Assembly: GCA_021842465.1 (NCBI GenBank)
Contig: JAKBZN010000007.1
Span: 1-64,000 of the forward strand
Source: Pseudomonadota bacterium
Lineage (GTDB): Bacteria > Pseudomonadota > Gammaproteobacteria > Burkholderiales > Burkholderiaceae_F
Direction of reading: 5' to 3'
DNA length: 64,000 nt
Part shown: one piece after another, positions 53,264 to 55,458 of the stretch
How positions within the stretch are numbered: position 1 is the first letter of the stretch
How the letters are laid out: the number at the start of each line of letters is the position of its first letter
Position numbers and translations under genes: made by a program
The notes under the pieces: generated by a model
What the model was told of the DNA's origin: nothing
What the model saw: the letters and a program-made list of their open reading frames with translations, nothing else
Databases searched by the model: none

Positions 53264-54013
53264 GTGCTGCGCGACCCGGTATTCATTTCGGACCTGCATC
53301 TCTGCGCGCAGCGGCCCCGCACGCTCGCGCGCGCGCTCGCCTTCTTTGACGGGACCGCGGCCGGGCACGCGGAACTCGTCATCCTCGGCGACCTGTTCGA
53401 ATACTGGCCCGGCGACGACAGCCTGGACGCGCAGACGCCCGACGACGACGTCGCGCGCACGGTGGCCGCCGCCCTGCGGCGACTCGCCGACCGCGGCGTC
53501 GCGATTTCCCTGATCCATGGCAACCGCGACGTGCTGCTCGGCCCGCGCTTCGCCGAAGCGTCGGGCGTCCGCCTGCTGCCCGACCCCGTGGTCGAGCAGG
53601 TCGGCGGGGTTCCCACCCTGCTCTCGCACGGCGACGCCTACTGCACCCGCGACACCGCGTACCAACAATTCCGGTTGCAGGCCCGCGACCCCCGCTTTCA
53701 GGCCGCGTTCCTCGCCCGCCCGCTCGCCGAGCGCCGCGCGCTCATCGGCCAGGCCCGCGCCCAAAGCGAACAGGAAAAGCAGCGCCTCGCCGCGGAAATC
53801 ATGGACGTGACGCCGGAGGCGATCGCCCAAGCCATGCGCGATGCCGGCGCCACGCAGATGATCCACGGCCACACCCATCTGCCCGGCCGCCACGCCTTCC
53901 CGCTCGACGGCCGCGAGGCCGTGCGCTGGGTGCTGCCGGACTGGGACGAAGACACGGAGCCGGCACGCGGCGGCAGCCTGGCGGTCGTGGATGGAGTGCT
54001 GACGCTGCGGTGA
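53264..54013 (+). CDS. lpxH: UDP-2,3-diacylglucosamine diphosphatase
   Basis: PVFISDLHLCAQRPRTLARALAFF...LVILGDLFEYWPGDD...LIHGNRDVLLG; GTG start. Confidence 0.92.
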   Translation: MLRDPVFISDLHLCAQRPRTLARALAFFDGTAAGHAELVILGDLFEYWPGDDSLDAQTPDDDVARTVAAALRRLADRGVAISLIHGNRDVLLGPRFAEASGVRLLPDPVVEQVGGVPTLLSHGDAYCTRDTAYQQFRLQARDPRFQAAFLARPLAERRALIGQARAQSEQEKQRLAAEIMDVTPEAIAQAMRDAGATQMIHGHTHLPGRHAFPLDGREAVRWVLPDWDEDTEPARGGSLAVVDGVLTLR

Positions 54014-54051
54014 CGCCTGCACCGCGCAATCCCCGTGCAAGCCTGCGCAAA

Positions 54052-54288
54052 CGTTTGACGGCTGCGCCCCGCCGGGACCGGCTACGCGGTGGTCGCCCCT
54101 GCGGGGCGACTGCGCTGCGCTGCACAGTCCGCGGGCGCACGGCCAACTCGCTGCGCGCCCTGCGGACGCTGCGCTCGAACAAGGGCCGTGAGTCAGAAAG
54201 GGAGGCGCGCGTTCGCGCGCCGCCCGCGTCCTTGCCCTGCTCGCCACCGCGTCTTATGCCGGTCCCGGCGGGGCGCAGCCGCCAAACG
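54052..54288 (+). repeat. Foldback repeat element copy 1 (arms 54052..54092 / 54244..54288)
   Basis: Arms CGTTTGaCGGCTGCGCCCCGCCGGGACCGGC-ta-CGCGGTGG versus inverted copy at 54244..54288; core GGGCGCACGGCCAACTCGCTGCGCG...GGGCCGTGAGTCAGAA shared with copy 2. Confidence 0.85.
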
Positions 54289-54357
54289 CAATCGTGATTT
54301 GGGCCGAGAAGGCAAGACACCCCCCGATTGGAGCCCCATGCCCGGAAAAGGGGAACC

Positions 54358-54471
54358 ATGCGGCTGGAGCAGAACGACGAGTGGTTCCTGAACCGTTGCC
54401 GCATGCAATATGAGGATCTCCGGTCGCCCCGCGAACCTGCACCGACGCGGCTGTCCGCCGTAGCACGCTGA
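54358..54471 (+). pseudogene. C-terminal remnant of an IS256/mutator-type transposase
   Basis: MRLEQNDEWFLNRCRMQYEDLRSPREPAPTRLSAVAR*, resembling the LLEQNDEW...L.AV ending of this family. Confidence 0.5.
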
Positions 54472-54504
54472 GTAACGTGTGCTCAGCCAATCCGGGCTGT
54501 GAAC

Positions 54505-55057
54505 CTACGCCACACCGCGACCAGTTTCCAAAGCCGCCCCGTACAACCGGAAAACTTGACCACAAAAGTCATCGATGAAGTTACTTGTAAGGACGGTAGC
54601 ATTCCAATTTCTATCTATGAAAGTGACTGATTGGAGGTCATCGGAAAGTTGGAATGTACCGTGGGAAAAGGCGTTTCTAATGTGCTGTGCGATGGTTCCT
54701 TCACGGCACCGCCCCAGGTACTGCTTAAAGGGAAACAGGCTGGAGCCCTCGACAACCATTTCCAGGCCATCTTCGAGGTGCTGACTCCGCATATATACCA
54801 TTGCAACATATCCACGAAGCATGAACACACCGCTCCAGCGAACGCGCTCCATTTCCGCATCGGGGGACGGCTGTGCAATTCGATCGGAGCGTGGCAATCG
54901 GTGCTCCGGAAATGAAATTACTCAAACCATACGCAGAAAATGCGTTATGTAATTTTTCGTCGCATATGAAAAGACCGAGTCTTGTAATTTCCCGCCGAAG
55001 TACCTCGTCTGAAACGTTGCCTAGTTCTTCCAGAATTGGTTGAAGATCAATCTCCAT
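54505..55057 (-). pseudogene. HEPN-like protein gene, apparently split by a frameshift
   Basis: 5' part 55057 (MEIDLQPILEELGNVSDEVLRREITRLGLFICDEKLHNAFSAYGLSNFISGAP), 3' part in another frame (54505..54897) with HIRNAFSHGTF (RxxxxH). Confidence 0.5.
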
Positions 55058-55110
55058 GTGAAACTCCTTGGGCGAGACCTATCAACGTTTTATTGTTCCA
55101 CAATGTTTGC

Positions 55111-55356
55111 CACCAGTTCCGGATACCCTTCGCCTGCTCCGGCCCCGTTGGGGGGCGCGGAGAGCAGCGCAGGAGTCGGGGCGGCGCGCGAACGCGCGCT
55201 ACTCCTTCTGACTCACGGCCCCTGTCCGAGCGCAGCGTCCGCAGGACGCGCAGCGAGTTGGCCGTGCGCCCCGGCTCCGAGCAGCGCAGCGGAGGCAGCC
55301 CGCAGGGCTGACCGCGACACCGGGCAGGAACAGGCGAAGGGTATCCGGAACTGGTG
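55111..55356 (-). repeat. Foldback repeat element copy 2 (arms 55111..55136 / 55331..55356)
   Basis: 26-bp perfect inverted repeat CACCAGTTCCGGATACCCTTCGCCTG; core homologous to copy 1 but in opposite orientation. Confidence 0.88.
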
Positions 55357-55458
55357 CACGACAACTTTCGCGCGAATTGTATGTTTACGAACGATATGTC
55401 GCGCGATCCACAACGCAATTCGTTCAAAGCGGAACGAAGCAATACCGCCGAACAAACG

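Follow-up and report, generated by a model that had tools for sequence, protein, structure and literature searches.

How do two neighbouring foldbacks come to share a core while each carries paired arms that differ from those of the other? The question is raised by an insertion in the window, the whole stretch of 64,000 nucleotides analysed here, which belongs to a genome of 2.25 Mb in 52 contigs that is about 89% complete (G000). An initial annotation had taken the arms for the termini of the element and had left a choice between a structured RNA or single-stranded DNA (ssDNA) with covarying stems and an element that copies its flank in inverted orientation on insertion. Here, we find it probable, at roughly 0.75, that the locus is a decayed non-autonomous IS630-family element in which the foldbacks are passenger or cargo modules with stems paired at the DNA level.

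The window locus

The insertion, its neighbours and its parts are as follows.

54014..55458, no strand: whole insertion, between lpxH-like and RNA-methyltransferase-like genes
53264-54013, + strand: lpxH-like gene, left neighbour of the insertion
55459 onward, - strand: RNA-methyltransferase-like gene, right neighbour of the insertion
54052..54288, + strand: module A, a foldback
54052..54082, + strand: module A, 5' arm of outer stem P1
54258..54288, + strand: module A, 3' arm of outer stem P1
54091..54111, + strand: module A, hairpin H1, GGTCGCCCC-TGC-GGGGCGACT
54129..54229, + strand: module A, P2/P3 stem-loop, bearing the conserved apical-loop motifs and inner hairpin H4
54145-54151, + strand: module A, apical-loop motif AACTCGC
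54172-54181, + strand: module A, apical-loop motif CGCTCGAACA
54205-54220, + strand: module A, inner hairpin H4
55111..55356, - strand: module B, a foldback inverted relative to A
55319..55356, - strand: module B, 5' arm of outer stem P1 (as read on the - strand)
55111..55148, - strand: module B, 3' arm of outer stem P1 (as read on the - strand)
54289..55110, no strand: spacer separating A from B, of low GC (0.43 at its lowest)
55421..55445, - strand: right outer terminal repeat in decayed form, CGTTCAAAGCGGAACGAAGCAATAC, with about 20/25 as in an IS630-type right end

Both foldbacks are present where the initial annotation had drawn them, with the core that it had seen in each. The arms of module A are 31 nt long and 97% complementary (54052-54082 with 54258-54288), and those of module B are 38 nt long and 92% complementary, the outer 26 perfectly so (55319-55356 with 55111-55148). 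The common core of 155 nt lies in inverted order (54091-54245 on the + strand versus 55159-55313 on the - strand) and is 83% complementary; the small hairpin pair, TCGCCCC-TGC-GGGGCGA versus CAGCCC-TGC-GGGCTG, had been read correctly. As ssDNA, module A folds at -105.7 kcal/mol (z -8.3) and module B at -94.5 kcal/mol (z -8.7), far better than shuffled sequences, none of which did as well (0/200 for each).

Most relatives have a shorter spacer (about 60-200 bp). Two overlapping open reading frames (ORFs) at 54505-55057 (-), in different frames, resemble one broken gene, and an RNAFSH stretch in one of them recalls a HEPN motif; neither ORF has a match in Pfam, NCBIfam or plasmids.

Copies and subtypes

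Copies exist well beyond this locus. BLAST with the core gave 19 matches in the window genome, several at contig ends, 21 in a closed genome of the same genus (G002), 23 in G001, 6 in G006 and 1 in G016. Module copies at contig ends (L009, L011, L013 and L019 in G000; L069 and L074 in G001) are frequent enough that these repeats probably break draft assemblies, which makes copy numbers in drafts uncertain.

Read side by side, the copies fall into two subtypes. Subtype A has an outer stem CGGCTGyGCCyCGyCGGGrCCGGC followed by ACGCGGTGGTCG, and subtype B a stem of CACGAGATCCGGGCGCCCTGCACCGGTTCC type followed by GTGTCGCGGTCG or a variant of it. At many sites an A (+) is followed by a B (-) 60-200 bp away, and other copies are single, fused or deleted (for example C29:10527-10639 and C1:171609 in G000). 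Within one subtype the arms are homologous across copies and differ by compensation. By sequence, then, the window foldbacks make up a single pair, one of subtype A and the other of subtype B, rather than two insertions that each have arms of their own. The earlier impression of unrelated termini was right in that each module pairs with itself and A differs from B; it arose from setting a single A copy against a single B copy, and does not hold within either subtype.

One copy, in G006 (C206), has mismatched arms: at L022:1498-2057 the 5' arm of an A module resembles that of the neighbouring B, and the module's own arms pair incompletely, which suggests arm exchange between modules.

Three modules of G002 (two A and one B; L112:3107-4560 at C1:1111250, C1:93554 and 2599103) are split at one position, after CTGCT of the conserved 3' strand. 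The split is due to an IS110-family element (that in L112 matches NF033542 at E 3e-86), with CT apparently the common core dinucleotide, and this insertion sequence appears to target the module.

Outer ends and insertion sites

The mobile unit ends further out than the arms, which are internal stems and not element termini. Intact units are roughly 400-800 bp long and hold both modules inside conserved outer repeats, TA-GTGTAGTGCTTCG...CGAAGCACTACAC-TA. Beyond the hairpins, the left end reads CTAGTGTAGTGCTTyG...GGAACGAAA and the right end CGTTCCAAACAGAATGAAGCACTrCACTAG. A pattern search of G002 found ends of the same type 1.17 kb apart in complete insertion sequences encoding a transposase of 361 or 378 aa, both of the IS630 family (NF033545, E 9e-84 and 4e-80; Pfam DDE_3, E 2e-21, for the 361-aa protein). 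The left end of the unit matches the left end of the insertion sequence, and the right end its right end. A MITE had been dismissed earlier on the ground that its terminal inverted repeats (TIRs) would be conserved; conserved TIRs do exist, outside the coordinates then considered.

Read side by side, the unit and the insertion sequence have only about 30 bp at each end in common, and nothing resembling the modules lies inside the insertion sequence. Derivation of the unit by internal deletion was rejected on this ground, the inner modules being unrelated to the insertion sequence. Units of less than 1 kb have no transposase ORF, and the spacer ORFs of the window belong to no Pfam or NCBIfam family. 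Four IS630 transposase genes are found in G002 and partial ones in G001; the window genome, in an assembly about 89% complete, has none that is close (the best match is 28% identical).

Comparison of empty and filled sites shows insertion into CTAG with duplication of TA, a known habit of IS630 elements. The empty site in G001 reads ...GCCATC-TAG-TCCCTGCG and the filled site in G000 ...GCCATC-TA-[GTGTAGTGC...GCACTGCAC]-TA-GTCCCTGCG. This site is the stop codon of a glnK-like gene (GCCATCTAGTCCCTGCG, empty, in G001; GCCATCTA-element-TAGTCCCTGCG in G000), whose TAG is retained after insertion, and G002 carries an independent insertion at the identical TA in opposite orientation. The left and right flanks of an IS630 copy agree in the same way, with TA as the duplicated target.

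Intact copies thus have the TIRs, the CTAG target and the TA duplication of an IS630-family MITE, and the window copy keeps a decayed right TIR only. No shuffled sequence matched as well as this relic (0/300, 55421-55445), and a left outer repeat was looked for in the window copy and not found. With its left TIR lost and its right TIR degenerate, the window copy leans on its homologues for its assignment, on which it is, as far as sequence comparison goes, a decayed relic of a non-autonomous IS630-type element.

Sites orthologous to the window locus bear on the proposal that the element copies its flank inverted on insertion, giving each copy arms of its own, as the difference between the A and B arms of the window could suggest. 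The window insertion is absent from G002 and G003, where the lpxH-to-trmJ gap is about 100 bp or less, and G001 holds only a 5' remnant, consisting of a stretch of the sequence upstream of the A module and a few arm bases. The empty sites contain neither arm, which means that the target was not the template of the arms; flank copying is refuted for this site and, with arms homologous among copies of one subtype at different sites, is hardly conceivable as a general explanation.

Within this genus, an IS630 transposase would move the unit in trans through the TIRs. The modules would be passengers or functional cargo predating the IS630 association: they do not derive from the interior of the insertion sequence, and other genera have the same modules within different outer repeats.

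Distribution across the class

A first covariance model, built on the core, detected the module in another 12 genomes of the class. These distant copies share only the loop motifs (AACTCGC...CGCTCArACA, plus CTGCGnTnCTCG on both sides); their stems are freely different in sequence and still paired. A second model (R2) was built from them and holds P2 pairs only, since the distant alignment shifts stem P3 by one column between groups. It found the module in 55/369 genomes of the class and in 47 of the 271 genera sampled, mostly in several copies and often as inverted pairs. In a draw of 399 genomes from the phylum all 13 carriers belonged to the same class, the number of other classes drawn being not known.

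Outer repeats vary by genus, being CTAG-containing GTGGTTGTTTCGGCCCT in G260 and of TTCATCGCG type, right behind apparent terminators, in G221; the IS630 association is therefore local and the module widespread. In G221, elements at L267, L269, L271 and L273 start immediately behind terminators made of a hairpin and a T run, which suggests that these elements prefer terminator tails. In many other genera an AT-rich hairpin of ACTTTCTTTGCTCGTGCAAAGAAAGTAACCAAAGAAA type precedes each module (L165, L167, L189, L260); the window copies lack it.

In other families, the core gave weak BLAST matches (query about 44-72; several of L024-L032) that look like chance and were discarded; at least five of them fall in what is apparently one protein-coding sequence (AAHGNSLRAL-like motif), with no module around. 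At the sensitivity of blastn, the window copy matched nothing in plasmids or phages. A pattern search of genome contigs gave no hit to the exact core and, with a looser pattern, one metagenome-assembled genome of the genus.

Stem pairing and the RNA alternative

RNAalifold gave one branched structure per subtype (23 A copies, 14 B copies). Subtype A has 86 two-sided changed cells versus 25.2 in shuffled alignments (0/500), with two-sided change in 18/28 pairs of the outer stem P1, and its inner helices hardly vary. When A, B and the G016 copy are taken together, covariation extends to the inner helices (61 versus 20.1 shuffled; 97.7% of cells paired), and one-sided stem states are rare. The covarying stems of a multi-copy structured element, as first envisaged, are therefore borne out across genomes.

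An RNA under selection is expected to tolerate G.U far better than A.C. The modules have covarying stems without this preference: G.T versus A.C is 15 versus 23 in A, 5 versus 12 in B and 16 versus 21 in 51 distant copies (equal penalties), counts that are suggestive and not a test, given that the copies are related and non-independent. Because G.T is no commoner than A.C, we infer pairing at the DNA level over selection on RNA. Of the two structural readings offered at the outset, DNA-level pairing fits better than RNA.

The modules might still act as RNA, supplying both inward-reading genes with structured 3' ends that serve as terminator, stabiliser or RNase substrate; the inverted pair would then give transcripts from both sides one and the same RNA. 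Besides the strong covariation, gene context speaks for this: adjacent opposite modules are invariably ordered + then - (21/21 among the loci read), flanking genes are convergent in 16, co-directional in 17 and divergent in 1 of 34 cases by a crude ORF rule, and both window neighbours are oriented so as to read a module in its sense form. However, promoter avoidance would likewise bias gene context, G.T shows no excess over A.C (36 versus 56 over the three sets), and the module has no match in Rfam, for the window even at E up to 1. No terminator-like T-tract follows the modules, and G221 elements and some of G260 lie downstream of an apparent intrinsic terminator. We consider this RNA function unlikely.

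With a DNA-paired passenger of an IS630-family element, the reading that we prefer, insertion would be tolerated downstream of genes, as in the window between two convergent genes. Compensating stems with fixed loop motifs, and a module pair that recurs in many genera of the class, are observed; what keeps the stems paired may be template-switch correction between the two arms or, alternatively, selection for a foldback or cruciform whose fixed loop bases serve for recognition.

The inner modules form a broad, apparently unnamed family. The loop-motif strings did not appear in the literature searched, which for PMC3733652 and PMC2267715 covers the running text, and an earlier record under another name is possible. 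A wider proposal, which we put forward tentatively and rate below an even chance, is that of a structured-DNA repeat, widespread in this class, of inverted folded modules with invariant unpaired bases and freely compensating stems. An enzyme of the host or of a mobile element would recognise it as folded ssDNA or cruciform, and various transposons would have captured it time and again, among them IS630 in this genus. Given the breadth of the module and its lack of an Rfam match, spurious small ORFs are probably called at many of these repeats by annotation pipelines, and a common repeat of the class may be without a name or an assigned enzyme. Copies within one genome provide dozens of compensatory changes at known sites, and hence a testable case for the old question of whether long bacterial palindromes owe their perfection to selection or to template-switch correction between arms.

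Comparison with known systems

BOX elements of the pneumococcus (PMC3049150) are likewise structured repeats built of modules, and IS630-type MITEs occur in the same genome, but by description the BOX modules and architecture differ from those found here. The Caulobacter CIR elements (PMC2229807) are described as two long hairpin arms and a linker; here, by contrast, modules A and B are homologues of one another, enclosed by TIRs of IS630 type.

REP/BIME/REPIN and TIR repeats (PMC3733652, PMC3116915) are palindromic, dispersed, often in inverted pairs and downstream of genes, and REP-type repeats are targets of insertion sequences (PMC1525189), as the module seems to be. The modules might belong to the REP/REPIN-like or 'TIRtron' repeats, with movement by a Y1 (RAYT-type) transposase that works on their folded single strand; they are palindromic, intergenic and paired in inverted order, and Di Nocera et al. 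2013 (PMC3733652) report Y1 transposases flanked by long, partly self-complementary TIRs that are also dispersed in pairs. However, the modules are much larger and branched (about 240 nt with several stems, versus a palindrome of 20-40 bp), and linkage to a Y1 transposase was not found: in carrier genomes 0/30 Y1_Tnp loci have a module within about 1.5 kb, and the Y1_Tnp family is missing from 9/34 carriers, including the closed genome G229. With ends and TA duplication of IS630 type in this genus, a Y1-driven repeat is very improbable.

Beside the REP, REPIN and TIR repeats, the closest in kind to the IS630-family unit proposed here is RUP of Streptococcus pneumoniae, a MITE for which movement by IS630-Spn1 has been proposed (review: PMC2229807). 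Both are non-coding and intergenic, with IS630-like TIRs, TA ends and proposed movement in trans. RUP is 107 bp long, whereas the unit described here spans about 400-800 bp and carries two covarying modules of 240 nt in inverted order.
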